This document shows positions 11,314-33,819 of a DNA stretch of 64,000 nt, in pieces. Where the stretch lies: the NCBI RefSeq assembly GCF_900110535.1, contig NZ_FOJA01000001.1, positions 2,019,393 to 2,083,392 of the forward strand, in the 5' to 3' direction. A program made the translations under genes and the position numbers. Source of the DNA: Halobacterium jilantaiense (GTDB lineage: Archaea > Halobacteriota > Halobacteria > Halobacteriales > Halobacteriaceae). Numbering within the stretch: the stretch's first letter is position 1; each line of letters starts with the position of its first letter. The notes under the pieces are model-generated. The model was not told the origin of the DNA. It saw nothing but the letters and a program-made list of their open reading frames with translations, and searched no databases.

Positions 11314-12027
11314 GTGACGACGACGTACGTGGCGTTCCTCGCGGCGTTCGTTCTGCCGCCGCTCGCGGTGCTCGCCGCGCTCCGCGTCGCTCGCTGGGAC
11401 GGTGACTACCGCCGCCTGGGCGGCATCGGGGTGCTGGTCGTGCTCGCGATGGTGTACACGACGCCCTGGGACAACTACCTCGTCGCGCGCGGCGTCTGGT
11501 GGTACGGCGACGGCACCGTGGCGGCGTCGCTCTGGCACGCGCCCGTCGAGGAGTACATCTTCGTCGCCGCGCAGACGCTACTGACGGGACTCTGGGTGCA
11601 GTCGCTGCCGGTCCGCGACGACCCCGACTTCCTGCCGACGCGCCGCGACGCCGCTGCCGGCCTGCTCGCCGGCGTCCTCGTCGCCGCCGTCGGCGTCGCG
11701 TTCCTCGCTCGTGACGCCACGTTCTATCTGGGTGCCATCCTCGCGTGGGCCGCGCCCGTGCTCGCGCTCCAGTGGGCGGTCGGCTGGCGGTACCTCTGGG
11801 CGCGCCGCCGGCTGTACGGCGTCGCCGTCGCCGTCCCGACCCTCTACCTGTCCACCATCGACCAGTGGGCCATCGCGGACGGCATCTGGGTGCTCGCCGA
11901 CCAGTACACGACCGGCCTGTCCGTCCTCGGGCTGCCGGTCGAGGAGGGCGCGTTCTTCCTCGTGACGAACGTCTTCGTGACACAGGGGCTGGTTCTCTAC
12001 GCGTGGGTGGTCGCGCGGTGGCGCTGA
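11314..12027 (+). CDS. crtY: Lycopene beta-cyclase (fused CrtYcd type)
   Basis: The 237-residue integral membrane enzyme makes beta-carotene from lycopene. It is the archaeal fusion of the two heterodimeric cyclase halves, and the hallmarks occur once per half: TTPWDNYLVARGVWWY and HAPVEEYIF near residues 50-78, then DQWAIADGIWVL and LPVEEGAFF near residues 188-214. About seven hydrophobic helices are visible. Start GTG at 11314 (MTTTYVAFLAAF). It overlaps brp by ten bases, so the two steps leading to retinal are translationally linked. Confidence 0.93.
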   Translation: MTTTYVAFLAAFVLPPLAVLAALRVARWDGDYRRLGGIGVLVVLAMVYTTPWDNYLVARGVWWYGDGTVAASLWHAPVEEYIFVAAQTLLTGLWVQSLPVRDDPDFLPTRRDAAAGLLAGVLVAAVGVAFLARDATFYLGAILAWAAPVLALQWAVGWRYLWARRRLYGVAVAVPTLYLSTIDQWAIADGIWVLADQYTTGLSVLGLPVEEGAFFLVTNVFVTQGLVLYAWVVARWR

Positions 12028-13049
12028 CCGCCCTCGGCTCCCGGGAGCGAGCCACGCTCGCGGGCCCGGCGCTCGCTGTCGGCTGGCTCGCCGTCGCGCT
12101 CACCGCAGTGCCTGTGCTCGCGGGCGTCGAGCTGTCGCCGACGGTCCGGTACGCGCCGCTGGTGGCGAGCGCGGTGCTGTTCGGGATGCCCCACGGTGCC
12201 ATCGACTACGTCGCGCTCCCGCGAGCCGTCGACGGCGAGGTGTCGGGCCGCTGGCTCGCGGCCGTCGGCGTTCTCTACCTCGTCCTCGGCGGCGCGTACG
12301 CCGCGACGTGGTTCGCGTTCCCGGTGGCCGCCGCGCTCGCGTTCGTCGCAATCACGTGGCTGCACTGGGGACAGGGCGACCTCTACCCGCTGCTGGAGTT
12401 CCTGGATACGGACTACCTCGACACGCGCACGCGACGCGCGGGGACGCTGCTCGTGCGCGGCGGCCTCCCGATGCTCGTCCCGCTGCTCGGCCACCCCGAG
12501 CGCTACCGGGCGGTCGTCGCGGCGTTCGCGGCTCCGTTCGGTGCGAGCGCCGACGACGTCGCCGCGCTCGCGCTGTTCGACCCGGCGGTCCGACTCGGGC
12601 TCGGCGTCGGATTCGCCGCGCTCACCGTCGGCGTACTCGCAGTTGGGCGACGGCGCACCCGGAATCCGCGGGCGTGGCGCGTGGACGCCGCCGAGACGCT
12701 GGCGCTGTGGGCGTTCTTCTACGTCGTCCCGCCGGTGTTCGCGGTCGGCGTCTACTTCTGCGTCTGGCACTCGGTGCGGCACGCCGCGCGCGCCATCGCC
12801 GTCGACGACTCGGTGCGGCCGTCGCTGCGTGCGGGCGACGTGCTCGGGCCGCTCGCGCGCTTCGGGAAAGAGGCGGCTCCCCTGACGGCGGTCGCGCTCG
12901 CACTCGTCGGTGGACTCTGGGTCGCGGTGCCGGACCCTCCGACCACGCTGGAGGGCGGTGCCGCGCTCTACCTCGTCCTGATTGCGGTGCTGACGCTCCC
13001 GCACGTCGTCGTGGTGACGTTGATGGACCGCGCGCAGGGCGTGCTCTGA
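12018..13049 (+). CDS. brp: Brp/Blh beta-carotene 15,15'-dioxygenase (retinal formation)
   Basis: The 343-residue membrane protein cleaves beta-carotene into two retinals for bacteriorhodopsin. The family's conserved iron-binding histidines are visible in GMPHGAIDYVALPR, WLHWGQGDLYPL and YFCVWHSVRHAARAI. Many hydrophobic helices are present. The GTG at 12018 overlaps the end of crtY; upstream reading frame in this phase is only antisense-like shadow. Together with bop, crtY and bat it forms a complete unit from lycopene to working pump. Confidence 0.93.
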   Translation: MALTALGSRERATLAGPALAVGWLAVALTAVPVLAGVELSPTVRYAPLVASAVLFGMPHGAIDYVALPRAVDGEVSGRWLAAVGVLYLVLGGAYAATWFAFPVAAALAFVAITWLHWGQGDLYPLLEFLDTDYLDTRTRRAGTLLVRGGLPMLVPLLGHPERYRAVVAAFAAPFGASADDVAALALFDPAVRLGLGVGFAALTVGVLAVGRRRTRNPRAWRVDAAETLALWAFFYVVPPVFAVGVYFCVWHSVRHAARAIAVDDSVRPSLRAGDVLGPLARFGKEAAPLTAVALALVGGLWVAVPDPPTTLEGGAALYLVLIAVLTLPHVVVVTLMDRAQGVL

Positions 13050-21702: not shown

Positions 21703-21711
21703 ACGCCTCTT

Positions 21712-23466
21712 CTACATCGATTCGGGCGCGTCGATGCCGAGCGCGTCGAGCGCGTTCGCGAGTGTCTGGCGCGCCGCGTCGACGAGCGCGAGCCGCGCCG
21801 CCCGGACCTCGGGCGCGACGTCGTCGGCGAGCACCGGGCACTCCCGGTAGAACGCGTTGAAGTCGTCGGCGAACTCCCGCGTGTACGTCGCGACCTGGTG
21901 GGGTTCGAGGTCCTCGGCGGCCGCCTCGACGACGAGCGGGAACCGCGCGACCGAGGCGAGCAGCGCGCGCTCGGCGTCCTCGTCCAGCACGTCGGCGTCC
22001 AGTTCGGGCTCGACGTCGCCGGCCTCGTCGAGGATGCCGCAGGCGCGGGCGTGGGCGTACTGGACGAACGGCGCGCTCTGCCCCTCGAAATCCAGCGCGT
22101 CCTCCCAGTCGAACGTGATGGCTTTCGTCGGCTGCTTGGAGACGATGTCGTAGCGGACTGCACCGATGCCGACCTGCTCGGCGATGCGGTCGACGTCGTC
22201 GTCGGAGAGGCCGTCGCCGCGCACGCGGTCGCCCATCCGGGAGCGGACGGCCTCTTCCGCCCGCGAGACCGCTTCGTCCAGCAGGTCGTCCATGTCGACG
22301 CCGGTGCCCTGGCGGGTGCTCATGGACTCGCCGCCGGGGAGGTTCACCCACGCGTAGAACTGCTCTTCGAGGCGGTCGGTGTCGTTGCCGAGGATGTCGA
22401 GGGCGGCGTTGAGCTTGTTCGCGTGCAGTTCCTGGTCCTCGCCGAGGACGGTGATGGCGCGGTCGAACGCCTCGAACTTCCACTCGTGGTGGGCCAAATC
22501 GCGGGTCGTGTAGAGGGTGGTGTCGTCCGAGCGCAGGAAGACGAACGACTGTTCGATGTCCCAGTTGTCGAGGTCGAGCTGCCACGCGCCCTCCTCCTCG
22601 TAGGCGTACTCGGAGTCCTTCAGCCGGTCGACGACCTCGTGCGTCGAGCCGTCGCGGAGGAACTCGGTCTCCTTGACGAACTCGTCGAACTCGGCCGGCA
22701 GCCGCCCGAGGGTCTCCTGCATCCCGCCGAGGACGGTGTCGACGACTTCCTCGACGCGTTCGTAGGTGTCCTCGTCGCCACGATCGAGCCCCTCGATGAT
22801 GGCCGCAATCTCGGCCTCGGCGGCGTCGACTTCTTCCCCGGGGCCCTCTTCGAGGAATTCGTTGCCCTTCCGGTAGTACCGAACGAGGTCGTAGTCGGGC
22901 TTCTCGCGGCCCGGCTCCGGCAGGTCGCTCTCGTCGAACGTCTCGTAGGCCCACGTGAACACCGCCATCTGGCGGCCGGCGTCGTTCACGTAGTACTCGC
23001 GGGTCACGTCGTTGCCCGCGTACTCCAGGACGCGAGCGAGCGCGTCCCCCAGAATCGGGTTCCGGGCGCGGCCGACGTGGACCGGCCCCGTCGGGTTCGC
23101 GCTCGTGTGCTCGACGACGACGGACTCGCCGGTGTCTTCGAGATGCCCCCAGTCGTCGTTCTGGGCCGCGGCGAGCGTGTCCGCGAAGTACGCGTCGCTC
23201 GGCGCGAAGTTCACGTACGGGCCCTGCGAGCGCGCGTCGGCGACGTACTCCGCGTCCGAAACGTCGATAGCGTCGGCGAGTTCGCCGGCGACCTGGGGCG
23301 GCGGCGCACCCGCCTCGCTGGCGAGCCGGAACGCCGCGCTCGACGCGAGCACGGCGGGCACGTCACCTGGCGGTTCCTCGATGCCGAGGTCCCCGGTCGG
23401 GTAGCCGAGGTCGTCGAGGGCCGCCTCGACGGCGGCCTCGACTTCCCGGCGGAAAGCGATGAACAT
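21712..23466 (-). CDS. argS: Arginyl-tRNA synthetase
   Basis: The 584-residue class I synthetase charges tRNA-Arg. The HIGH-type signature is [13 protein letters not shown] near residue 125, and the KMSKS-type loop is [12 protein letters not shown] near residue 380. The N-terminal Arg-S domain (tRNA D-loop contact) and the C-terminal DALR anticodon domain ending LGIDAPESM are both present, so the gene is intact. ATG 23466 ([13 protein letters not shown]) is chosen; an in-frame ATG 38 codons upstream gives a non-family extension. Divergent from the stranded taw1 5' end. Confidence 0.97.
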
Positions 23467-23578
23467 GCCCGTGTGGTGGACGCCGCCGACAAAAGGTGTT
23501 CTGAAGCGCGGCCGGCGTGGCTCGCGCGGCTGTGTCGCTGACGCCACGCTTTTCCCCGCGAGCGCCGAACTCGGTGCC

Positions 23579-23698
23579 ATGCCGAAGCAGGTGGACGACC
23601 CGGACTACCACCACGAGAACCACACGGCCGCCCAGACGTGTGGCTGGACCGCGAACGCGATGCGCGGCGAGGGCACCTGCTACAAGCACGCCTTATAG
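23579..23698 (+). pseudogene. taw1: Stranded 5' end of the host taw1 gene
   Basis: The 39 codons from ATG 23579 ([18 protein letters not shown]...) match the first residues of the intact Taw1 at 32842 almost position for position, up to CYKHA. Then the frame meets the element junction and stops (TTA TAG). The DNA is high-GC and host-like. The upstream CCACGCTT motif (23546-23553) also recurs ahead of the intact gene. It is therefore the original host start of taw1, cut off by integration. It may still be transcribed, making a useless peptide. Confidence 0.88.
23681..23694 (+). repeat. attL core, inside the taw1 coding sequence
   Basis: TACAAGCACGCCTT is identical to the copy at 32962. With one mismatch the match extends to 17 bases (from 23678). 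It encodes Tyr-Lys-His-Ala of Taw1 plus the start of the next codon. To its left is host taw1 5' sequence, to its right element DNA. Confidence 0.88.
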
Positions 23699-23701
23699 TC
23701 G

Positions 23702-23735
23702 TACCAAACTGCTATAAGCACGGCGCGTATTGGTA
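23702..23735 (+). promoter_or_regulatory. Integrase promoter with att-like repeat
   Basis: CTATAAGC (23712-23719) is a TATA-like element 32 bases before the integrase ATG. It lies within CTGCTATAAGCACGG (23709-23723), which differs from the attL copy CTGCTACAAGCACGC (23677-23691) by two bases. TACCAA (23702-23707) and TTGGTA (23730-23735) form an inverted repeat around it. Integrase binding here could repress its own gene. Confidence 0.5.
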
Positions 23736-23750
23736 TGCGTAGAACTCAGT

Positions 23751-25058
23751 ATGTCCTCGATAGACGACCCCGAACGCCGCTACCAGCTTTCACGGGACCG
23801 ACTGAAAGACGCCGACCTCCACCCCGACGACATAGACGCCGCGCTCGAATTCCTAGACGCAATCAATCCCGACATATCCACAGTCAATTTCACGGGTGAA
23901 AACGGGGAACGCGAGACGAAAGCCTACGGGACGCTCGCAGCGTACGCGCAAGCCCTGAAACGCGTTGGCGAACTGGCGAACACGCCGCTTGTTGAGATGC
24001 CGGACACGCGCGCTGTCAACGCGTTCTTTGACGAGATTGGTAGTGGCACCCACCCAGACGTGAAGGAGGGCGGCTACGCCAAGAGCACGCTCTCACAGTG
24101 GCAGAGCGGCGTTACAAAGTTCTACGAATACCACGACGACCTCGGGATTAACCACACTGAAGTTGTGGTGAAACGCCAGCCGAAGTCGTCAGTGGACGAA
24201 CGCGATATGTACACTCGGGAGGAAATTCAGGAACTCCGGGACGCCGTGAACAACACACGGGATCGGTGTGTGCTTGAGCTCTTATTGAATACGGGCCAGC
24301 GGATTCGAGCAATTCAGACGCTCCGCGTGAAGGACGTCGACACTGACGAGGGGGTTTACTACTTGAACACGGACGAAGCCGGGTTGAAGGGCGCGGACAA
24401 GAACGGCTCGAAGCGTCCACTCCTCGGCGCGGCCCGGCCCGTCTATGACTGGTTGAAAGACCATCCCACGGGGGAGCCCGACGACTATCTGATTACGTGC
24501 CTCCCGACCGCGCAGCGTGGGACAGCCGGGGAGAAACTGTCACAGTCAACGATTCGCTCGCAACTCAAGAAGGTAGCCAAGAACGCGGGAGTGGACAAAC
24601 CACCAAACCCTCACAACTTCCGGCATTACTTCGTCACAGCGTGTAAGCGCGACTACGGCATGGACGAATCGACGATTAAGCACCTAATCGGACACGGCCC
24701 GAACAGTAAGGTAATGGAAACGACCTACCAGCACCTGACTGACGACGACCATATTCGCGCGGCGGAAGTCGCAGCGGACATGCGGGAGCCTGAAGAGGAA
24801 AGTCCGTTGACGCCGCAGGTGTGTCCGACGTGTGGCGAACAGTTAGAGCCGGAGGCGAAGGCGTGTCCGGGGTGTGGGACGGTGTTCGCGCCGGACGCGA
24901 AGGCGGCCGAGGACCAAATACAGGACGACATGAAACAGTCCTATGCGGAGACGGACCCGGAGGATTCGGATACGCAGGAGAAGCTGGATACGCTCGATGA
25001 GATTCTTGATGACCCGGAGGTGAAGGCGGCGCTCGCGGAGAAACTTGGCGAGGACTAA
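23751..25058 (+). CDS. Tyrosine recombinase (integrase) of the element
   Basis: The 435-residue site-specific recombinase catalyses insertion and excision of the element. An N-terminal SAM-like core-binding domain covers about residues 60-150. The catalytic set is complete: the first arginine in NTGQRIRAIQTL near residue 185, HNFRHYF (His-x-x-Arg) near residue 287, HLIGHG near residue 308, and the nucleophile tyrosine in TTYQHL near residue 325. The C-terminus adds a zinc ribbon CPTCGEQLEPEAKACPGCG, common in haloarchaeal integrases. ATG 23751 is chosen over 23730 because it follows the TATA element at a normal distance. It sits 57 bases inside attL. Confidence 0.93.
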   Translation: MSSIDDPERRYQLSRDRLKDADLHPDDIDAALEFLDAINPDISTVNFTGENGERETKAYGTLAAYAQALKRVGELANTPLVEMPDTRAVNAFFDEIGSGTHPDVKEGGYAKSTLSQWQSGVTKFYEYHDDLGINHTEVVVKRQPKSSVDERDMYTREEIQELRDAVNNTRDRCVLELLLNTGQRIRAIQTLRVKDVDTDEGVYYLNTDEAGLKGADKNGSKRPLLGAARPVYDWLKDHPTGEPDDYLITCLPTAQRGTAGEKLSQSTIRSQLKKVAKNAGVDKPPNPHNFRHYFVTACKRDYGMDESTIKHLIGHGPNSKVMETTYQHLTDDDHIRAAEVAADMREPEEESPLTPQVCPTCGEQLEPEAKACPGCGTVFAPDAKAAEDQIQDDMKQSYAETDPEDSDTQEKLDTLDEILDDPEVKAALAEKLGED

Positions 25059-25792
25059 TTCCTTCCGTCACGGGCCAAAAACCGGGCTATTGCGGATTCA
25101 GCCTCTTTGGGGTCAAAGGAACTAGAGCCCTCAATAATGGTTGCGCTTTCCCCCTCTTCCCCTTCAGGCGAGGATGGCTCCCAGTCTGTCTGACGGGAGT
25201 ACGCTTTGATTTTCTCCGCGTTCTTTTCTTCGGACCAAGACCGTACATCCACCAATCGATTTTCTTCTGTTGGGTGCGTCCGATAGTATCGCTCAACTCC
25301 ACGCTCAATCAGGTCGTGGATGTCTAACTCTCCGGCTTCGGCAGCCCGGCATAGGAACCCAATACAATCAATCAGTGTCTTCTGCATCTCCGGGGTCGCT
25401 TTGTTTGACTGCTTGAGTTCTTCGCGGTACCGCTCATACGGTATTTTGGCGTCGGGGTTTTGGTCCGGGGGCCAAATCCTCCCGTCTTGGTCCCGTTGTT
25501 TCGTGAAGAACTCCCTGGCATTGTCCCATTCGAGATCGGCCAAGTCCATATCTCGACTATCATGGGCCACAGGTCCGTCTTCGGAATCCGCTTCTCCACC
25601 GATGATATCCGCTAAGTCTTCTTGGTCTACGTGGTTGAAGAGGAATTGGTAGTCTTGGAGCCCTAATTGGGTGTTTTCTTCAATCGCGTCTTTATGGTCC
25701 TGTTCTGCCTGCCTGCTAGGTCTGTCGTAGTCACCCTGGAGTACGTCCCGGCGCGTTGACGTGAGAATCGGGCCATTTGCTCGCTCTCCCAT
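25055..25792 (-). CDS. Element protein of unknown function (245 aa)
   Basis: An acidic, soluble protein with no recognised catalytic motif. The N-terminus (GPILTSTRRDVLQGDYDRPSRQ) resembles, from memory, a short segment found at the start of many haloarchaeal plasmid and virus proteins thought to be DNA-associated. The C-terminal helix contains FDPKEAESAIARFLARDG. It converges on the integrase with a four-base overlap and is divergent from the micro-ORF operon, the position a repressor often takes. That role is inference only. Confidence 0.65.
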   Translation of the reverse strand: MGERANGPILTSTRRDVLQGDYDRPSRQAEQDHKDAIEENTQLGLQDYQFLFNHVDQEDLADIIGGEADSEDGPVAHDSRDMDLADLEWDNAREFFTKQRDQDGRIWPPDQNPDAKIPYERYREELKQSNKATPEMQKTLIDCIGFLCRAAEAGELDIHDLIERGVERYYRTHPTEENRLVDVRSWSEEKNAEKIKAYSRQTDWEPSSPEGEEGESATIIEGSSSFDPKEAESAIARFLARDGRN

Positions 25793-25823
25793 GTAAAGTG
25801 AATATACTTGCGTTTATGTAAAG
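25791..25823. promoter_or_regulatory. Divergent promoter/operator of the element
   Basis: The 57-base gap between the 245-aa gene (leftward) and the micro-ORF operon (rightward) is AT-rich. ATGTAAAG occurs twice (25791-25798 and 25816-25823), 25 bases apart and on one face of the helix for about 2.4 turns. AAGT/ACTT arms (25796-25809) lie between. It looks like a shared control region. Confidence 0.45.
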
Positions 25824-25849
25824 GTTTGTACGCCCGTTACACCCTGTGT

Positions 25850-25984
25850 ATGCCAAAGGCGAACACCCGACTCCCGTGCTCCCGGCAAACACGGGACAAT
25901 ATCCTGTACCCACTCAAGCAGCCACAGGAGAGTTACGACGACCTGCTGCGGCGGTTAGCAGAAGAATACGAGGGAGAACCATGA
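25850..25984 (+). CDS. Micro-ORF 1 of the replication operon (44 aa)
   Basis: A short protein (MPKANTRLPCSRQTRDNILYPLKQ...) with a basic first half and an acidic helix SYDDLLRRLAEEYEG. The pattern of a short strand followed by two helices resembles haloarchaeal VapB-like or CopG-like antitoxin/DNA-binding peptides. Similarity is weak, and no toxin partner is evident. The stop overlaps the next ATG (ATGA). Confidence 0.55.
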   Translation: MPKANTRLPCSRQTRDNILYPLKQPQESYDDLLRRLAEEYEGEP

Positions 25985-26100
25985 TCGACGCGGTCGAAGA
26001 ACACCGCGAGGACCTCGCCGACCTCACGGACACCGACCTTCCCGCAGCCGGCCTCGCGGAGGCACTCCTCGAACTATCCGAACAGGAGGCTGAAGCGTAA
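25981..26100 (+). CDS. Micro-ORF 2 of the replication operon (39 aa)
   Basis: A very acidic peptide (MIDAVEEHREDLADLTDTD...) predicted to be helical throughout, with no recognised domain. Its start overlaps micro-ORF 1 by four bases, and its TAA shares one base with the next ATG. Support comes from the unbroken chain of overlaps and the acidic composition. Confidence 0.5.
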   Translation: MIDAVEEHREDLADLTDTDLPAAGLAEALLELSEQEAEA

Positions 26101-26186
26101 TGTACGGAAACGAGACGGCCGTTGGCGCGGCCGCCACTGCGACGATGGGGATGACGACGAACACCGAGTGGGTGATTCGCCTGTGA
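26100..26186 (+). CDS. Micro-ORF 3 of the replication operon (28 aa)
   Basis: A very short Ala/Thr/Met-rich peptide (MYGNETAVGAAATATMGMTT...). It could be translated, because its ATG overlaps the previous stop and its stop overlaps the next GTG. It may equally be only a ribosome bridge that keeps the operon coupled. An AGGAGG lies about 15 bases upstream. Confidence 0.35.
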   Translation: MYGNETAVGAAATATMGMTTNTEWVIRL

Positions 26187-26320
26187 CTGACTACAGAAGC
26201 CAGCCACAAAGTCGTTACGGAAAACAATTCTGTGGCGGATGCTGGGAACCCGCGCACACCGAAATTGACGGAACGCCAGTGTGTGAATCGCACGCCCGCG
26301 CCTACGGGGTGATTCGGTGA
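26183..26320 (+). CDS. Small zinc-finger protein (45 aa)
   Basis: The peptide contains a compact metal site: CGGC at residues 17-20 and CESH at residues 34-37, i.e. CxxC...CxxH. The rest is basic and glycine-poor. Small zinc fingers next to replication genes are frequent in haloarchaeal viruses and plasmids and usually bind DNA or a partner protein. GTG start, overlapping micro-ORF 3 by four bases and the primase gene by four bases. Confidence 0.65.
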   Translation: MTDYRSQPQSRYGKQFCGGCWEPAHTEIDGTPVCESHARAYGVIR

Positions 26321-28743
26321 GCATTCAAAAACCCCCACGCCCAGAGCCATTAGATGTAACCCCCAGCGCAATCCCCGACACACTCACCAATCAGGATGCG
26401 TGGGTGTGCTGGCGGTACGAATGGGACGCCGACCGCGAAGATTGGACGAAACTCCCCGTCGACGTCAACACCGGAGGGATTGCCAAATCCACGGACGGCG
26501 AAACGTGGACGTCGTTCGAGGACGCGGTCAGCTACCACGCCAAGCAAACCACGGACACGGATGGGATCGGATTCGTTCTTCACGACGAGGCTACCATTCT
26601 GGGCCTTGACCTTGATGATTGCCGCGACCCCGAAACAGGCGACCGCGAGGCATGGGCCGACCACGTGCTTGAGAAGGTCCCCACGTATGCGGAGGTATCC
26701 CCGTCCGGAACCGGATTGCGGTTACTCGGCCTGGGGTTCGTCCCTGAGGGAGGGAACCGCGCGGACGTCGAGGATGAACCCGGCCACATTGAGATGTACG
26801 ATACCGGCCGATATCTGACTGTGACCGGCCACCGGATTGAGGACACGCCGGCGGACGTGACGCAAGTCCATCAAGCAGTGAAGGACGTCCACGGTGAGTA
26901 TATCGCTAGTGACGCTGAATCCGCCGGCTCGGAGGATGGACCTGGCGGCGTGAACCCCACCCCTAAGGCCGGCAAGACCGGGTCGGTCCCCCTATCGGAC
27001 GCCGACCTTATCGAGAAGGCGAAGAACGCCGAGAACGGTGAGAAGTTCCGCCGGCTGTGGAACGGAGATACGGCGGGGTATCCGTCACAGAGCGAAGCGG
27101 ATCAGGCGCTCGTGAATCTGCTGGCGTTCTGGACGGGCGGTGACCGTTCGAGGATTGACAGTCTGTTCCGCGAATCCGGTTTGTACCGGGAGAAGTGGGA
27201 TGCCGACCGTGGCGACCGGACGTATGGGGAGCGAACGATACGGACGGCGCTAGAGGGTCAAACTGAGTTCTACGACCCGGACGCCACAGAGAACACTTCC
27301 CCGGAGCGTGACGCCGGCGAGAACGTCACAGACGGCGACAAGCGAACCGGCACGCACGACGTGACGTGGTCGGACGTATACGAGCGGTATCAGAACGCGG
27401 AGAACAGCGACGGGAAGAACGCCGCACGGTATGACGCCGCCGAAGTTCTCCTACAAAACCACTATTGGCGGACCTTCGAGGAAGACGATACGCTATGGTG
27501 GTACGATCCGAACGACGGGATTTACCGGCAAACCGGAGAGTCACAAGCCCGCCAAATCGTCCGTGACCGCCTGCGTGACAAGTACGCGCGTAACGAGGTC
27601 CGCGAGGTCTTATCCCACCTTCGAGCGGCTACGACAGTCACACAAGACGATATGGGTGGGCCTGCAGAGAAAGTTGCCGTGGCCAACGGCGTGTTGGACG
27701 TATCCGACCGTGAGTTATCCGACCACGACCCCGAGTATAATTTCTTGAGCCGTCTCGGAACGGAATACGATCCGGACGCGGATTGTCCCCGGTTCAAACA
27801 ATTCCTTGACGAAGTGGTGTCCGACGAAACAGCCAAGAAGAAACTGCAGGAGTTCGCGGGCTTCACGCTAATGCACTGGCGGCTAAAGTGGCATAAGAGC
27901 CTCTTCATCGTCGGTCCACGGAATAGCGGGAAATCCACGTTTGCCGATACGATACGCGCTCTTCACGGTGAGGACACCGTGGCTAGTCTCTCCCCACAGG
28001 AAATGACCCAACGGTTCGGCGGCGCGGAACTGTACGGGAAGTGGGTGAATATCCGGAACGATATTCCCGCGAGCGCGGTGAAGAAAACCGGGACGTTCAA
28101 AGAGATTATCGCGGGCGACCCCATCAAGGCTGAGCGGAAGGGCAAAGACCCGTTCATGTTCACGCCAACCGCGAAACACATTTTCGCAGCGAACCAGCTC
28201 CCCGATACGGAGAACGACGACGGGGCGTTCTATCGCCGGATTCTCCTCGCGGCATTTCCTCGAACAATCCCACAGGACGACCGCGACGGTGATTTAGACG
28301 AGAAACTCGAATCGGAGCTTCCCGGTATCTTAAACTGGGCGCTTGACGGCCTGCAGCGGCTTCGGGAACAGGGTGGCTTCACGGGTGACTTGACGCCGTC
28401 CCTAACAGCCGAGAAGTGGGATAAATGGGGGAGTACAGTGGACCGATTCGCGTCTACGTGCCTTGACGTGGGTGACGTAGGTAACACCGAACCGATTCCG
28501 AAAAAGACCGTGCATCAAGTGTATAAGAACTTCTGCGAGCAAGAGTCCATGCCGGCGGAAATGCAGAGTGAAATGACCACGCGGCTGAAAACAGACCACA
28601 ACGTGAGTGACGGCCGTGCGACTGTGAACGGAACACAGAAACGGTGTTTTCTGAATGTCTCGTTCACGGCGCGAGCAGACGCCTATCGGTCGGACACAGA
28701 CGCAGGTGGCCGGTCATCCAGTGGCTTCGGCGGCTTCGAGTAG
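26317..28743 (+). CDS. Primase-polymerase / SF3 helicase replication protein
   Basis: The 808-residue replication initiator-type protein. The N-terminal 200 residues are an archaeo-eukaryotic primase-polymerase (prim-pol) domain. Its catalytic acidic motif is GLDLDDCRD near residue 97, with SPSGTGLRLLG and GHIEMYDTGRYLTVTGH further on. A linker follows, then a D5/P4-type SF3 helicase. Walker A is GPRNSGKSTFADTI near residue 535, the B region YGKWVNIRNDIP, and sensor/arginine segments HIFAANQLPDTENDDGAFYRRI. A winged-helix tail follows. It should prime and unwind the element's DNA at the adjacent repeat region. GTG start (MSIQKPPRPE). Confidence 0.9.
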   Translation: MSIQKPPRPEPLDVTPSAIPDTLTNQDAWVCWRYEWDADREDWTKLPVDVNTGGIAKSTDGETWTSFEDAVSYHAKQTTDTDGIGFVLHDEATILGLDLDDCRDPETGDREAWADHVLEKVPTYAEVSPSGTGLRLLGLGFVPEGGNRADVEDEPGHIEMYDTGRYLTVTGHRIEDTPADVTQVHQAVKDVHGEYIASDAESAGSEDGPGGVNPTPKAGKTGSVPLSDADLIEKAKNAENGEKFRRLWNGDTAGYPSQSEADQALVNLLAFWTGGDRSRIDSLFRESGLYREKWDADRGDRTYGERTIRTALEGQTEFYDPDATENTSPERDAGENVTDGDKRTGTHDVTWSDVYERYQNAENSDGKNAARYDAAEVLLQNHYWRTFEEDDTLWWYDPNDGIYRQTGESQARQIVRDRLRDKYARNEVREVLSHLRAATTVTQDDMGGPAEKVAVANGVLDVSDRELSDHDPEYNFLSRLGTEYDPDADCPRFKQFLDEVVSDETAKKKLQEFAGFTLMHWRLKWHKSLFIVGPRNSGKSTFADTIRALHGEDTVASLSPQEMTQRFGGAELYGKWVNIRNDIPASAVKKTGTFKEIIAGDPIKAERKGKDPFMFTPTAKHIFAANQLPDTENDDGAFYRRILLAAFPRTIPQDDRDGDLDEKLESELPGILNWALDGLQRLREQGGFTGDLTPSLTAEKWDKWGSTVDRFASTCLDVGDVGNTEPIPKKTVHQVYKNFCEQESMPAEMQSEMTTRLKTDHNVSDGRATVNGTQKRCFLNVSFTARADAYRSDTDAGGRSSSGFGGFE

Positions 28744-28778
28744 CCCCGAATTGTTTATTTCACTTCTTTTCCTTACCC

Positions 28779-28990
28779 TGGTGAAAGTATAACTTGCCGG
28801 ATCCAGGCATCACACACCACAGTACGCCAATATAAGTATTTTAACTAGACAACCCCCGGCATATCTACGCGCGTATGCGTATGCATGCCCGCCCGCCTGT
28901 GTGGTTCATCGGGGTTTGTCTAGTCAACTAGATTATATTGGCGGAAGCGTGGTTATACTCTCTGTATTACGGTGGTAACACTTTCACCAC
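28779..28990. other. Nested inverted repeats, probable replication origin
   Basis: Arms nest around a GC-rich centre. GGTGAAAGT (28780-28788) pairs with ACTTTCACC (28980-28988), AGTATAAC (28786-28793) with GTTATACT (28952-28959), CGCCAATATAA (28825-28835) with TTATATTGGCG (28933-28943), and ACTAGACAACCCC (28844-28856) with GGGGTTTGTCTAGT (28911-28924, one extra T). A palindrome TCTAGTCAACTAGA sits at 28919-28932. There is no gene between 28744 and 29216. It lies directly after the replication gene. Confidence 0.6.
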
Positions 28991-29051
28991 GGTGCAGACC
29001 ACGGCCGATGACCCTTGTAACGGCCGAGTACCAACAACGGTTGTGGGCTGG

Positions 29052-29100
29052 ATGATAACATTTCTATCTATTTATTGATGTATATTCCATTTCCATTCAA
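29052..29100. other. AT-rich stretch in the origin region
   Basis: From 29052 to about 29100 the sequence is mostly A and T (for example CTATCTATTTATTGATG), the most AT-rich segment of the window. It could be the DNA-unwinding part of the origin beside the inverted repeats. No coding frame fits it. Confidence 0.45.
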
Positions 29101-29184
29101 AGTGACTCATAGTAACTCCCTGTGCTCGGAAGGTCGCGTTTCCGTTCTGAACTACATGCCCTTATACCACTATCCTGACACAGA

Positions 29185-29194
29185 AATATAAGTG
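29185..29194 (+). promoter_or_regulatory. Promoter of the second element operon
   Basis: AAATATAAGT is a strong TATA-like element about 30 bases before the ATG at 29217, and it is followed by another AT-rich run (GTGTATATCACACATATG). It would drive the long rightward operon. Confidence 0.5.
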
Positions 29195-29216
29195 TATATC
29201 ACACATATGTCTGCGT

Positions 29217-29372
29217 ATGGATCGAACCTCAATCCCCCTGGGGACGTCGACCCGTGACGACCTCAAGGCGTACAAAGAACAGCACGACCTCCGGAACTAC
29301 AACCGCGCCATACAGTCACTACTCGCGGACCAGGAGGAACCGGCAGAGAACGACGGCCGTGGCCGTGCGTGA
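29217..29372 (+). CDS. Ribbon-helix-helix-like peptide (51 aa)
   Basis: The sequence IPLGTSTRDDLKAYKEQHDLRNYNRAIQSLL has the strand-helix-helix pattern of small RHH (CopG/VapB-type) DNA-binding proteins: T-x(2)-DLK followed by a second helix with a hydrophobic end. No toxin gene follows. Lying right after the origin-like repeats, it may control copy number or the downstream operon. This is inference from pattern. Confidence 0.65.
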   Translation: MDRTSIPLGTSTRDDLKAYKEQHDLRNYNRAIQSLLADQEEPAENDGRGRA

Positions 29373-29402
29373 AATAGCCCTCCTACAACTCCCTCAAATC
29401 AC

Positions 29403-29849
29403 ATGACTGCGTCTAATCAAACGGTTGTAAACGGTGGTAGTGAACCCGACTATTCCAACGTGGAAATCCCAGCGAAGCCACCCGAGGAGTTCACGTACCA
29501 AGAGCGGCGGGCGGACCTACTCTCACAGATTGAGGACCTCGGCCATCCGAAACTCCTCAATCAGTCGGAGCAAGCCGAGCGATTCGGCGTTAGTCAGACG
29601 CAGATTCACAAGGACTTAGACCGAATCGCTGAATCCAGCCGCGAGCACGTTGCGGACCGCGACCGCCGGGCGCTCACCGTGGAGAGTGTCGTGAACCGCG
29701 CGGTGATTGGGTTGCTGCGCGAGGAGAAATACCGGAAGGCCGCTCGCACGGTCATGGAGTTCGACGAGTGGTGCCAGGAGTTCCAGGAGCTCGAGGAGTT
29801 GGCGGCCCGTATCTCGGCGCTTGAAGAAGCGCAAGGAGGTGGCCGATAA
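29403..29849 (+). CDS. HTH DNA-binding protein (148 aa)
   Basis: Residues 35-75 form a helix-turn-helix (LLNQSEQAERFGVSQTQIHK with DLDRI after it). The C-terminal half is a charged coiled-coil-like region ending ELEELAARISALEEAQ. The shape recalls small-terminase or partition-adaptor proteins, as well as simple regulators. None can be preferred. The TAA shares a base with the next ATG, and AAGGAGGTG precedes that start, so the operon continues. Confidence 0.7.
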   Translation: MTASNQTVVNGGSEPDYSNVEIPAKPPEEFTYQERRADLLSQIEDLGHPKLLNQSEQAERFGVSQTQIHKDLDRIAESSREHVADRDRRALTVESVVNRAVIGLLREEKYRKAARTVMEFDEWCQEFQELEELAARISALEEAQGGGR

Positions 29850-30070
29850 TGCGGCACTCCAAGCGGGAGCTCGAGCGCGCGGTCGATGACTTGGACCCCA
29901 CGGCCGACTACGACGGGCCGTCGAAGATCGTGATAAACGACTACGTGGTTCCGACGGACTGGGACGGCGGGGAGAGCGACGACGGCGAGAAGCGGCTGGC
30001 ATCCCGGACGCGGATCACCCGCGACGCCGTCGGCGACTGGCACACCGAACGGGAGGACTTCGACTCATGA
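29849..30070 (+). CDS. Small SKRE-motif protein 1 (73 aa)
   Basis: The first of three neighbouring small proteins that start with the same motif: here RHSKRELERAVDDLD. The rest is acidic (VPTDWDGGESDDGEKR) and unlike the other two. No known domain. It overlaps the next gene by four bases. GGAGG (30052-30056) lies ten bases ahead of that start. Confidence 0.65.
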   Translation: MRHSKRELERAVDDLDPTADYDGPSKIVINDYVVPTDWDGGESDDGEKRLASRTRITRDAVGDWHTEREDFDS

Positions 30071-30333
30071 CTCGGCACTCAAAGCGCGAGCTAGAACGCG
30101 CGCTTGATGACCTCACGACTGAGGCCACGACTCCCGGGGACGTCCCCGACCGCGTCCGTGAGGCGTTTCGCGCAGCGCTCGCGTATCGGTATGCGAACTA
30201 TGGGAGTGTCGCCGGCGACCCGGACGGCGACAGCGAGGAGATGGGCGCGTTCCTTCGGGACGCCAGTGACCACGTTGAGGAGCCGTACGCGACGGCGCTC
30301 CGGGAACTGATTGACGCGAGGCGGTCGACATGA
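30067..30333 (+). CDS. Small SKRE-motif protein 2 (88 aa)
   Basis: N-terminus TRHSKRELERALDDLT is near-identical to that of the preceding protein. It is followed by a helical segment (DRVREAFRAALAYRYANYG) and a second helix pair near the end (EPYATALRELIDARRS). Probably all-alpha. Role unknown. Four-base overlaps on both sides. Confidence 0.65.
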   Translation: MTRHSKRELERALDDLTTEATTPGDVPDRVREAFRAALAYRYANYGSVAGDPDGDSEEMGAFLRDASDHVEEPYATALRELIDARRST

Positions 30334-30581
30334 CGCGCCGGTCGAAGCGTGAGATTGCGCGGAAGGTCGACAGCCTAGAGACGCCGTCTGACGCGACGAC
30401 GCCACACCACGGAATTGTCTATACTGACGGCGACGGGGACGGGTACGTGACGCCGGACGGCGACCGCGTGCCAGCCGACGCGGCGGGGAACCCCGACCTC
30501 TCCCATAGTGGGCCGACGGTGGTTCTTCGCGGGGAGTACGCCGAGAACGCGCCGCGTGTTCCGGAGGACGTCGACGAATGA
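30330..30581 (+). CDS. Small SKRE-motif protein 3 (83 aa)
   Basis: N-terminus TRRSKREIARKVDSLE is the third version of the shared motif. The remainder is strand-like and acidic (IVYTDGDGDGYVTPDGDRVPAD), different from the other two, so only the first 15 residues are common. Overlaps its neighbours by four bases each way. Confidence 0.65.
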   Translation: MTRRSKREIARKVDSLETPSDATTPHHGIVYTDGDGDGYVTPDGDRVPADAAGNPDLSHSGPTVVLRGEYAENAPRVPEDVDE

Positions 30582-30847
30582 CTTGGTCCGTGATGACCCC
30601 CCGGGTTCGCCGGCACCCGGGGGCGAGCATCCACGCCGGCCGTCGGACGTCGTCGTTTCGGTCATGGATCCAGTACCCCGTTCGTGTGTCACAGCACGGC
30701 GGGGCATGCGACGACCCCGAGGTTTCGGCACTCTCGGGCGAGCCACCGCGCCGACCCAATTCGACTATGAACGATTCGAATCGAACGACCACGCTAGTAC
30801 AGTCCCATGAACACACGCCGACCCTATTCGGTGGTCAGAATGAGTGA
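30578..30847 (+). CDS. Element protein of unknown function (89 aa)
   Basis: An unusually basic, Arg/Ser/Pro-rich small protein (MTWSVMTPRVRRHPGASIHAG...) in an otherwise acidic proteome, without recognisable domains. The ATGA overlap with the gene before it, and GGAGG (30563-30567) ten bases ahead, support translation. The composition is a warning that it could be a non-coding frame. Confidence 0.45.
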   Translation: MTWSVMTPRVRRHPGASIHAGRRTSSFRSWIQYPVRVSQHGGACDDPEVSALSGEPPRRPNSTMNDSNRTTTLVQSHEHTPTLFGGQNE

Positions 30848-31262
30848 CGAATACCTGTTCGCGCTCCGCGAGGGCCATCCGGGGATCAAATTCCATCGGG
30901 GCGTAAGTTTCGACTACGGCCGCACGGGCGGCGACCCGATTCAGTTCATCGATGACGAGGACACCGTCAACCGTCTCAAGAACAAGACCGACAAGTCCGG
31001 GAACCACGTGTTCCGGTGGGTGGCAACCTCGGAGCTTGAGGCGGTCCTCGATGCAGCGGACGACGCGGCTGCGGCGATTGAAGCGGGCGAGCATGACGCA
31101 ATTCTCGACCTGCTGCTGGCGGCCGAGCAAAAGCGGTACGGCCCCCGCGTCACCGTCCTCGACGCGATAGGGGAGCGGTCCCGCCAAATCGAGGCTGAAT
31201 CGAACCCGGACGACCTCGCCGATTCGGTGACGGTGGCGGACGTCCGCGCGAGCATCCAGTAA
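30840..31262 (+). CDS. Element protein of unknown function (140 aa)
   Basis: An acidic soluble protein with a mixed N-terminal half (YLFALREGHPGIKFHRGVSF) and a helical C-terminal half (ATSELEAVLDAADDAAAAIE). No known domain. The ATG at 30840 overlaps the previous gene by eight bases; an in-frame ATG at 30807 would add 11 residues. Continues the operon. Confidence 0.65.
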   Translation: MSDEYLFALREGHPGIKFHRGVSFDYGRTGGDPIQFIDDEDTVNRLKNKTDKSGNHVFRWVATSELEAVLDAADDAAAAIEAGEHDAILDLLLAAEQKRYGPRVTVLDAIGERSRQIEAESNPDDLADSVTVADVRASIQ

Positions 31263-31266
31263 CCCG

Positions 31267-31953
31267 ATGAGTGTTGGCGAGGACCCATTCCCGGACCTGG
31301 ACCCCTATCCGGAGGGGTTGGATTTCTGGGAGCGCGACCACCTCGGCGGCCTGTTCTCCCAGGCCGCGCACGGTGATTGCGCGTCCCACGTAGCCATGCC
31401 CCGGCCGAATTCCAGTGAGATTGCTGGCGCGCAGGACCTCCCGAGTGAAGCCACCCCGGACGATACCGAGCGACAGTATTTCTGGGCGGGAGATAGCAGC
31501 TGGAATAGAGACGGCGACCGGTTTGACGCGCCCGCATTAGGCGACCGGCTCGCCGACACCGTCGCCGACGTGAATAACCCGTTACTGGATGATAGCACAG
31601 TGGCGTTCGACATCTTCCCGACCCAAACGGGCGGCGACTACACTAGTCGCGTGATCGTCGAGAACGGCAAGGTGACGGACTACACTGTGGCGCTCCCGTT
31701 CTTCCCGATTGAGGACTACGTTGGGAAGTACAAGTTCATCCAACTCCGGTATCTCCTCAAGCGGGACGCCCCACTCCTCCGGCCGCATAACACGGCCACC
31801 ATTCGCGGAGGCGTTCCGTATCTCTACTATGGCCGCGACAGTACCCCGAGTGCTCCCTCGGGTGCGCTCGCCGGCTTGGTGGCGGATATTGTAGAGGCGT
31901 ACGTGGGAGAGTCGACGGGGGACACCCTGGATGGCTACCCCGAGGACTACTAG
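31267..31953 (+). CDS. Element protein of unknown function (228 aa)
   Basis: An acidic, largely beta-like soluble protein (TVAFDIFPTQTGGDYTSRVIVENGKVTDYTVALPF) with a Pro/Tyr-rich C-terminus. No transmembrane segment, signal or nucleotide-binding motif is visible. It begins four bases after the preceding stop. The late-operon position would suit a structural or cargo protein, but nothing in the sequence proves either. Confidence 0.65.
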   Translation: MSVGEDPFPDLDPYPEGLDFWERDHLGGLFSQAAHGDCASHVAMPRPNSSEIAGAQDLPSEATPDDTERQYFWAGDSSWNRDGDRFDAPALGDRLADTVADVNNPLLDDSTVAFDIFPTQTGGDYTSRVIVENGKVTDYTVALPFFPIEDYVGKYKFIQLRYLLKRDAPLLRPHNTATIRGGVPYLYYGRDSTPSAPSGALAGLVADIVEAYVGESTGDTLDGYPEDY

Positions 31954-32004
31954 TCGGGGGAACCAATCCGTAGTTATTTTCGTATTGATGAGAACGACTG
32001 GGAT

Positions 32005-32754
32005 ATGAACCGACGGCGATTCCTTGCTACTGCAGCTACAATCGGTGCGGCAGGACTCGCTGGTTGTACCAGTAGTGGCGACTCGGCGAATCCAGCAACC
32101 GCGTCACAAACATCGATTGGGCAACAGACAACCTCGACATCTACTGACTCACAGACGCAAACCTCCTCAACCTCGGTTGAGGCGAGTGTGACCTCGGCGG
32201 AGTACCGAGTCCAATCACCAAACGGCTACGAGGAAGGCGCGATTGTGGGGCACGTCAAGAATACGGGCACTAAACGGCTGAGGTCGGTCGCTGTCACTGG
32301 GAAATTCTACGACGGGCAGGACAACCTATTGACCACGCGCGTGGTAAAAATCAGTGACCTAGCTCCTGGCGAAGTATGGGACGCCTTCGTCATATACGTT
32401 GACAACCCCTCAAAGGTTGAGCGAGGCGAGCTTGTAATCACTCAAGCGACTACAACGCCACGCACCTATTTCCCCGATGGATTTAGCGTCACTGAGTCAG
32501 GTATGGAGGTGCCACAGGACGACAATCGCCCTATCATCTCAGCAACGGTCGAGAATACAAGCGGTGTTGACGATGCTTTCCTAATGGCTGTCCCGAAGGT
32601 GTATGCAGAAAACGGGAACGTCCTCGGAACTGCCATCACGTCAAAGAGTGGTCTGTCTGACGGTAAAACTTGGAACTTCAATAGCCGCGTTCGGATTCTA
32701 AACGGTGAATGGACAGATAGGGCCGCCGATCACGAGGTTGTTCTTCTCCAATAA
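32005..32754 (+). CDS. Tat lipoprotein with FxLYD-like domains (element cargo)
   Basis: The 249-residue exported protein has a twin-arginine signal and lipobox (RRRFLATAATIGAAGLAGC), a low-complexity Thr/Ser/Gln linker (residues 25-60), and two Ig-like domains. The first has the FxLYD pattern (IVGHVKNTGTKRLRSVAVTGKFYD), and the second (ISATVENTSGVDDAFLMAVP) looks related. It sits on the cell surface. It is the only element gene with an obvious envelope location, with its own gap before it, so it is likely cargo rather than part of replication. Confidence 0.8.
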   Translation: MNRRRFLATAATIGAAGLAGCTSSGDSANPATASQTSIGQQTTSTSTDSQTQTSSTSVEASVTSAEYRVQSPNGYEEGAIVGHVKNTGTKRLRSVAVTGKFYDGQDNLLTTRVVKISDLAPGEVWDAFVIYVDNPSKVERGELVITQATTTPRTYFPDGFSVTESGMEVPQDDNRPIISATVENTSGVDDAFLMAVPKVYAENGNVLGTAITSKSGLSDGKTWNFNSRVRILNGEWTDRAADHEVVLLQ

Positions 32755-32841
32755 CGCTTGGCCATCCCCGATACTTGGAGGGCATGACCGTTCTGGGTGG
32801 GATGGACGGGCTTTTTGCCGTTCCCACGCTTGCCTCCCTGT

Positions 32842-33819
32842 ATGAGCGAGGGCGAGTCCGGACCGAAGCAAGTCGATGATCCGGACTACCATAGCGTGAA
32901 TCACACGGCGGCCCAGGCCTGCGGATGGACGAAGAATGCACTTACAGAAGGTCGGTCGTGTTACAAGCACGCCTTCTACGGCATCCGCTCGCACCGCTGC
33001 ATCCAGATGACGCCGGTGGTGCGGTGCAACGAGCGCTGCGTGTTCTGCTGGCGGGACCACTCCGGGCACACGTACGAACTCGACGGCGTCGAGTGGGACG
33101 ACCCGGAGGCCGTCGTCGACGCCTCGATTCGCCTCCAGCGGAAGCTGCTGTCGGGGTTCGGCGGGAACGACGAGGTTCCCAGAGAGCGCTTCGAGGAGGC
33201 GCTGGAGCCCCGGCACGTCGCCATCTCTCTGGACGGCGAGCCGACGCTCTACCCGCACCTCCCGGAACTCATCGAGGCGTTCCACGACCGCGGGCTGACG
33301 ACGTTCCTCGTGTCGAACGGCACTCGGCCGGAGGTGTTGCGGGAGTGCGACCCGACGCAGCTCTACGTCTCCGTGGACGCGCCGGAGCGCGCGACGTTCG
33401 ACGACGTGGTCGGGGCTCAGGAGGACGACGCGTGGGAGAAGCTCGTGGACACGATGGACGTGCTCTACGAGAAAGACGAGACGCGGACGGTGCTGCGGAC
33501 GACGCTCGTTGGCGGCGAGAACATGGCGAACCCGGACTGGTACGCGGGGTTCTTCGAGCGCGCGGACCCGGACTTCGTGGAGCTGAAGGCGTACATGCAC
33601 GTCGGCGACAGCCGGGACCGCCTCGGCCGGGAGGCGATGCCGAGCCCCGAGCGCGTCACGGCGTTCGCCGAGACGGTGCAGGAGCACATGTCGAGTCTCC
33701 CGGTGCTGAAGACCGACGAGTCTTCGCGAATCGCGTTGCTGGCGCGCGACGAGGACACGTGGGTGCCGGAACTGGAACACGGCTCCGAGTTCTGGGCGGA
33801 GGGCGCGCAGGCTGACTGA
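32842..33819 (+). CDS. taw1: 4-demethylwyosine synthase (chimeric, rebuilt gene)
   Basis: The 325-residue radical SAM enzyme makes 4-demethylwyosine on tRNA-Phe position 37 from N1-methylguanosine and pyruvate. The SAM cluster motif CNERCVFCWRDH is near residue 62, followed by AISLDGEPTLYPHL and FVELKAYMHVG. A further conserved cysteine pair lies in the N-terminal 45 residues. The first 40 codons come from the element and differ from the stranded host copy at 23579. From codon 41 (in the att core) onward the gene is host sequence. The reading frame is intact, so the enzyme should work. Confidence 0.93.
   Translation: MSEGESGPKQVDDPDYHSVNHTAAQACGWTKNALTEGRSCYKHAFYGIRSHRCIQMTPVVRCNERCVFCWRDHSGHTYELDGVEWDDPEAVVDASIRLQRKLLSGFGGNDEVPRERFEEALEPRHVAISLDGEPTLYPHLPELIEAFHDRGLTTFLVSNGTRPEVLRECDPTQLYVSVDAPERATFDDVVGAQEDDAWEKLVDTMDVLYEKDETRTVLRTTLVGGENMANPDWYAGFFERADPDFVELKAYMHVGDSRDRLGREAMPSPERVTAFAETVQEHMSSLPVLKTDESSRIALLARDEDTWVPELEHGSEFWAEGAQAD
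32962..32975 (+). repeat. attR core, inside taw1
   Basis: TACAAGCACGCCTT, the exact match of attL at 23681. Left of it is the element's replacement taw1 start, right of it the host taw1 body (CTACGGCATCC...). Confidence 0.88.

Follow-up and report, generated by a model that had tools for sequence, protein, structure and literature searches.

A rep-then-ori layout is known from the Sulfolobus islandicus plasmid pRN1, the Streptococcus phage Sfi21, and the SaPI/PICI elements. In pRN1, a stem-loop of ∼100 nt located 3' of orf904 is described as required for replication (PMC4234260, PMC3869888), and its authors state that the stem-loop region lacks an iteron structure and that specific Rep binding to it was looked for but not seen (PMC4234260). 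SaPI origins are reported to lie directly downstream of rep and to contain iterons recognized by the Rep C-terminal domain (PMC7581432), with Rep apparently acting there as two hexamers (PMC7581432, PMC6092414), whereas PICI origins are described as two iteron sets placed around an AT-rich region, which together with rep maintain plasmids (PMC7581432, PMC6092414). In phage P4, a single protein, alpha, is described as priming, unwinding, and binding origin repeats through a winged-helix domain (PMC4234260).

For haloarchaeal elements, no description of an origin with such a layout was found in the literature searched, which covered few subscription papers; the paper on the Halorubrum tailed virus DL1, in its available portion, predicts a primase-helicase and describes no virus origin (PMC10544981). 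Here, we analyzed a 64-kb stretch of Halobacterium jilantaiense DNA (the window), in which an earlier note had proposed a new, Orc-independent origin beside a primase-helicase gene. Our analyses make it very probable that positions 28775–28993 comprise the replication origin of an integrated element, which would be bound, melted, and primed by the element's own PrimPol-SF3 Rep after excision. Computed support for the origin comes from its position, its symmetry, the covariation of its arms, its recurrence 3' of rep in homologues, and its agreement with the origins of pRN1 (mapped) and Sfi21 (annotated). The earlier proposal is thereby supported, with the qualifications that independence of Orc would be a prediction and that the origin is not of an unknown kind, since the candidate follows the known layout of SaPI/PICI, Sfi21, and pRN1.

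The rep gene and its downstream gap lie in an integrated element

The element, of ∼9.3 kb, is inserted in the 5' part of a 4-demethylwyosine synthase (TYW1) gene. In same-genus genomes, the counterparts of window segments 21707–23697 and 32863–33799 overlap and run on without interruption, which represents the empty site (for example, G015:C204:9494-11485 and 11370-12306). At the element ends, an imperfect target duplication of ∼116 bp (23582–23697 and 32863–32978) was found, as was a 14-nt core, TACAAGCACGCCTT, which occurs at 23681 and at 32962, 9281 bp apart. Integration preserved the TYW1 reading frame (window 32797–33819), with the right end of the element supplying a related copy of the TYW1 5' part (68 bp, 79% identity to the left copy); the insertion therefore probably leaves the host gene undestroyed.

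Rep resembles the SaPI5 primase-helicase

By Pfam, Rep contains an NrS-1-type PrimPol helicase-binding domain together with D5_N and an SF3 helicase core, and NCBIfam classifies Rep as a P4-family primase (TIGR01613, above cut-off). An AF2 model of the helicase half (447 aa, folded with 13 relatives) reached a pLDDT of 86.9, and its best PDB match was the SaPI5 primase-helicase 7ola (Foldseek E 4e-24), to which it aligned with a Z of 32.9 over 389 residues at an rmsd of 8.3. Moreover, a sequence-profile comparison matched Rep with the SaPI5 primase-helicase at an E of 2e-50. At fragment residues 368–422, corresponding to the Rep C-terminus, the model contains a helix-helix-beta-hairpin that looks like a winged helix, whereas the C-terminal domain folded alone gave a poor model (pLDDT 49).

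Relatives of the helicase half are present in 42 of the 392 genomes drawn from the order, as well as in plasmids, including Salinibacter pSR11, and in haloarchaeal and bacterial phages. In the genome and viral contigs, a single-protein query returned no matches, whereas an alignment query did. Proteins of ∼330–460 aa in G013, G017, G023, G024, and other same-family genomes (loci L004–L008 and L010–L018), often on small contigs, match only the PrimPol half of Rep, and a PrimPol of the Rep type thus seems to travel also without a fused SF3 helicase.

Coaxial inverted arms follow rep

As the earlier note had stated, the primase-polymerase/SF3 helicase is directly upstream of the gap (28744–29216), with the Rep stop codon ending at 28743 and the first arm beginning at 28775 (Table 1). 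The main inverted repeat, formed by the two inner arms around a 51-nt loop, scored 16.5, as compared with 8.5 ± 0.9 in dinucleotide shuffles (reached in 0/300), and it ranks first among all inverted repeats with a span of ≤260 bp in the whole window. The outer arms, of 19 nt and 84% complementary, share the centre of the main arms exactly (28884), and this coaxial outer pair was equalled in 0/20,000 shuffles of the flanks. The resulting layout reads A> <B (centre) B> <A. Nested symmetric arms over 210 bp, as described before, are therefore real, but three blocks rather than four are coaxial, namely two within the 34-nt arms and one outer; the GAAAGTATAAC/GTTATACTCTC pair (28783–28793 and 28952–28962) is off-axis. 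A crude count of nested arms scoring ≥6 was not above chance (95/300 shuffles), and significance accordingly rests on the main and the coaxial arms. Further, GTGAAAGTRTWA has only two occurrences in the 2.95-Mb genome, one in each outer arm, as expected of a candidate private initiator site. A 14-base palindrome claimed for this region was not recovered, the longest perfect palindrome being one of 10 nt, TACGCGCGTA, at 28866.

Table 1. Features of the integrated element and of the candidate origin region, in window positions (L003, L096, L083, and L026 are loci of relatives)
Feature	Position	Strand	Remarks
Integrated mobile element, including both target-duplication copies	23582–32978	.	Empty site in same-genus genomes
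Tyrosine integrase	23730–25058	+	PF00589, E 4e-22; phrog_1, E 1.5e-31
Rep, NrS-1-type PrimPol + D5_N + SF3 helicase, 808 aa	26317–28743	+	PF22763, PF08706, PF19263
Outer left arm, iteron A, GGTGAAAGTATAAC	28775–28793	+	Coaxial with 28975–28993
ACCACAGTA block	28816–28824	+	Common to L003 and L096; alignment register slightly off
Inner left arm, contains CTAGACAACCCCCG	28825–28858	+	34 nt, 79% complementary to 28910–28943; covariation
Alternating purine-pyrimidine tract, 23 nt, in loop	28866–28888	.	Sole run of ≥15 in the window
GGTTCA block beside right inner arm	28903–28908	+	In register in L003 and L096; GATTCG in L083 and L026
Inner right arm	28910–28943	-	Pairs with 28825–28858
Second A-like copy, right side, off main axis	28952–28962	-	GTTATACTCTC, 91% complementary to 28783–28793
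Outer right arm, inverted iteron A, GTAACACTTTCACC	28975–28993	-	Coaxial with 28775–28793
AT-rich stretch, 78% AT, candidate unwinding or promoter region	29052–29101	.
51-aa ORF after gap	29217–29372	+	Ribbon-helix-helix-like by eye

Two inverted 34-nt arms around about 50 bp would also be the form of a MITE, or of another terminal inverted repeat that landed behind rep by chance. This reading is contradicted by the gap DNA being single copy in its own genome and by relatives having different letters at the same place, and a nucleotide search of plasmid and phage collections gave no match to the gap DNA; we assign the MITE a practically negligible probability.

Within the loop (28859–28909; GC 59%), the length of the strictly alternating tract was reached by 0/500 shuffled loops. 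The strongly AT-rich stretch noted earlier lies outside the arms, at the sole spot of the 64 kb with ≥70% AT over 50 bp. The gap of ∼470 bases also proved to be without a convincing gene, its longest stop-to-stop frame having 61 codons, and the 51-aa ORF that follows it matched no Pfam or NCBIfam family above cut-off.

An Orc1/Cdc6 (ORB) origin was considered and rejected. The ORB core, which we take to be TCCAGTGGAAAC, matched the window at 19 places when up to three mismatches were allowed, fewer than the 32 that chance would give; two of the matches, both with three mismatches, fall near the region, at 28717 and 28968. The orc1/cdc6 family is absent among the element proteins scanned. Both absences, of obvious ORB boxes and of a cdc6 gene, agree with the earlier reading of this DNA.

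The arms covary among close relatives

For covariation analysis, we aligned the window with L003 (G025), L096 (Haloferax massiliensis), L083 (Halorientalis marina), and L026 (a Halobacteriales MAG), whose helicase halves are 54–59% identical to that of the window (alignment A5). These five sequences were picked from the relatives of >50% identity because their DNA behind rep could be aligned; L092 and L025, whose Reps are also >50% identical and which have no such inverted repeat directly behind rep, were left out. All five aligned sequences carry (i) outer blocks with AAAGT and ACTTT, (ii) inner blocks around TAGACA and TGTCTA, and (iii) a middle in which purines and pyrimidines often alternate.

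Two-sided changes occurred in 14 of the 42 arm pairs (8.2 ± 2.0 in shuffles; as high in 2/500), and the covariation score was 0.279, as compared with 0.148 in shuffles (reached in 0/500) and with ≤0.131 when the partners were slid by 1–3 columns. At 28848:28920, for instance, three sequences have G-C, one has C-G, and one has T-A, and the pair 28845:28923 is C-G or T-A. The signal became clear with the five sequences; an alignment of three had given weak values (two-sided pairs 55/500, score 17/500). The compensating changes that the earlier note had named beforehand as a check were thus found in the relatives. Moreover, in L003 and L096, one AAAGTGTCT-like iteron is common to the four blocks, in outer and inner arms alike, a form to which the A> <B ... 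B> <A arrangement of the window is close. Arm similarity also tracks Rep similarity between loci (Mantel-type test, 0/2000 permutations); in the same type of test, it was not attributable to the C-terminal region over the helicase core (632/2000).

Covarying pairs, together with a strand that folds better than 200/200 shuffles (DNA parameters, z −4.7), would also suit a structured RNA located where the rep transcript ends, such as a terminator with a long hairpin or an RNA with a regulatory role. The covariation is equally expected from two opposite-orientation copies of one binding site, which is why we reject an RNA hairpin as the main reading. Tandem ∼9-bp repeats within arms (see below) and iterons shared by the outer and inner arms of L003 and L096 are features of binding sites, and Rfam gave no match up to E = 1 for the region. 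We therefore regard a structured RNA as very unlikely and retain the paired Rep-binding sites of an origin as the preferred reading.

Among the Rep relatives, a Natronomonas aquatica contig (L188/L025) of 28,822 bases, with a coverage of 326, carries a 51–55% identical Rep and is possibly a multicopy plasmid or virus.

Inverted repeats recur directly behind rep in homologues

To assess recurrence, we took the 350 bp that follow the stop codon of each homologue, scored their best inverted repeat, and compared it with 100 dinucleotide shuffles, in two sets of loci. Set 1 comprised haloarchaeal genomes, named plasmids, and phages, with the window included (65 loci, 64 with enough downstream DNA; from the genomes of the order, only the usable loci were taken, rather than all 46 places). 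Set 2 comprised mostly IMG/VR contigs (68 of 78 loci, ten being dropped as duplicates or for too little downstream DNA; 67 were long enough). Directly 3' of rep, 32 of 64 loci in set 1 and 32 of 67 in set 2 beat all 100 shuffles. By comparison, the controls gave 6/52 and 2/59 upstream of rep, 0/65 and 0/68 in mid-gene, and 3/57 and 3/66 at 550–900 bp downstream, for sets 1 and 2, respectively. When duplicates were dropped with a hand-made list, the counts became 31/60 and 28/61 behind rep, as compared with 6/49 and 2/53 upstream, 0/61 and 0/62 in mid-gene, and 2/54 and 2/60 further on. A strong inverted repeat is thus missing from the 350-bp segment in roughly half of the homologues (32/64 and 35/67 fell short of 0/100). 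In the same inverted-repeat test, the positive controls, pRN1 and the annotated Sfi21 ori, each gave 0/200.

Within the arms, tandem repeats (p ≤ 0.05) were present in 31 of 54 arms, as compared with 5 of 125 control arms, with a period of 9 in 23 of the 31. The 54 arms, deduplicated with a hand-made list of this kind, all beat 100/100 shuffles, had a loop of about 20 or more, and were long enough; these tandem figures, like the recurrence figures, are counts rather than tree-corrected values, and related loci are not independent. The 9-bp tandem form found in the majority does not extend to the left arm of the window (p 0.54). The median loop between arms is 67. An alternating tract is not universal: p ≤ 0.05 was reached by 5/31 and 7/25 loops when shuffled loops served as the reference, and by 9/31 and 12/25 when neighboring DNA did.

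These data also bear on whether the repeats might be operators in a promoter, through which a dimeric regulator (the product of 29217–29372 or an autoregulating Rep) would control the downstream operon. The gap does lie upstream of a same-strand operon, has an AT-rich stretch, and is followed by a small, possibly DNA-binding ORF. However, the layout recurs directly after rep though the next gene differs between records, being, for example, a hypothetical protein gene and then terminase in pSR11, a DEAD/DEAH helicase gene in Alicyclobacillus, and VRR-NUC in a Listeria phage. Furthermore, the arms are far apart, and the pRN1 and Sfi21 origins give the same signal. Operators are thus an unlikely reading, and an origin remains the preferred one.

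The locus of the Halorubrum tailed virus DL1 (L082) has such repeats behind its primase-helicase gene. In the natural 14.6-kb Halarchaeum plasmid pCBA1220-05 (L080), a very large inverted array of CGTCCA repeats (score 37.5, 0/100 shuffles) lies upstream of the primase gene rep and is probably the plasmid origin, on the other side of rep.

Comparison with described origins and a proposed mechanism

The window element shares with the described SaPI/PICI pri-rep-ori systems (including SaPI5 and SCCmec Cch2) (i) the placement of the ori, here a candidate one, directly 3' of rep in an integrative element; (ii) two sets of short repeats on either side of a middle, which here are the A and B blocks flanking 28859–28909 coaxially; and (iii) a primase joined by a D5/SF3 helicase, with SaPI5 7ola being the closest solved structure to Rep. 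It differs in being archaeal, in having an NrS-1-type PrimPol fused to the helicase, and in having arms that are coaxial inverted blocks. The middle is described as AT-rich in SaPI/PICI, whereas that of the window is GC-rich (0.59) and alternating, with the AT-rich stretch outside; for PICI, the layout is taken from the papers' descriptions rather than from sequence controls. In addition, the element proteins scanned give no sign of phage induction or packaging genes (no packaging gene recognized at E 0.001 or better).

In pRN1, a PrimPol-SF3 Rep is likewise followed directly 3' by a large stem-loop, described for pRN1 as required; by our reading, each arm of the pRN1 stem contains two tandem TGTCCA repeats in inverted orientation (TGTCCATAG TGTCCAACT, read by eye). 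The likeness rests on layout, not on DNA similarity. pRN1 differs in having a copy-control (ORF56) gene upstream of rep. Among the small frames scanned in the window element, the only RHH-like ORF, 29217–29372, is downstream. The pRN1 stem-loop was once proposed to be a rolling-circle origin (PMC3869888), and a double-strand origin nicked at the stem-loop might be considered here also. However, the other pRN1 study argues against such an origin (PMC4234260), and no rolling-circle Rep family was matched among the element proteins scanned, which leaves rolling-circle replication extremely unlikely and an origin unwound by Rep as the favored reading.

In Sfi21, the annotated ori, with tandem inverted repeats, occupies the gap directly after a putative primase gene, and its arms are tandem TTAGTTAC TTAGTTAC (read by eye). 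Unlike the window element, Sfi21 is a tailed phage of bacteria whose DNA helicase is encoded by a separate upstream gene, and the middle of its ori is AT-rich. With P4 alpha, which has a Toprim-type primase, the comparison concerns the protein, in that a single protein is described as combining priming, unwinding, and repeat binding.

We propose that, after excision of the element, the PrimPol-SF3 Rep would bind the inverted repeats, presumably through its C-terminal region, as two mirror-image sets of initiator sites, and would assemble as helicase rings on either side of the centre. Melting by Rep might then take place in the ∼51-bp middle, where the alternating tract lies, in the AT-rich DNA of the arms and their surroundings, or in both, and either is a candidate site for its start. 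The PrimPol domain would prime synthesis, and host polymerases would take over, in a process presumably independent of Orc1/Cdc6.

A broader proposal, which we hold to be about equally likely to be right or wrong, is that D5/SF3 replicons of archaea and bacteria share one architecture, in which initiator sites of ∼9 bp, repeated in tandem and mirrored (or nested in a derived form, like those of the window), lie directly behind rep around a 40–100-bp middle that often has an alternating tract. The pRN1 stem-loop, the Sfi21 ori, and the origins of PICI and haloarchaeal elements would then be versions of it. Since the iteron letters would drift with Rep while the geometry stays, the identity of a replicon should be readable from the DNA behind rep. 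If the origin reading of the repeats in the window is right, (i) origins of many plasmids, proviruses, and satellites could be found from sequence alone; (ii) the pRN1 stem-loop, described as iteron-free, would be linked to iteron origins; and (iii) compact replicons for haloarchaeal genetics could be obtained. Our results point to a far wider sharing of such layouts.

Other motifs and reading frames in related elements

A hairpin-like motif, CCGATGACCC-(few nt)-GGCGAGG, is present in the window (29003–29028) and in L003, L035, L084, L087, and L098, with variants in L049 and L092. The motif recurs in the gaps of related elements: L003 has three copies behind rep, and L035, L084, and L087 have two each. 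Inspected by eye, the motif looks like a kink-turn (GAT-GA ... GA, adjoined by C.C or T.T); it had no Rfam match, and the gapped pattern has many matches elsewhere in the genomes. Finally, a short ORF for a small hydrophobic protein, with a core like 'ANGTVAVVVIG' (read by eye from the DNA), is located downstream of rep in L003, L087, L084, L035, L098, L101, and L048, often close behind rep or the origin region.
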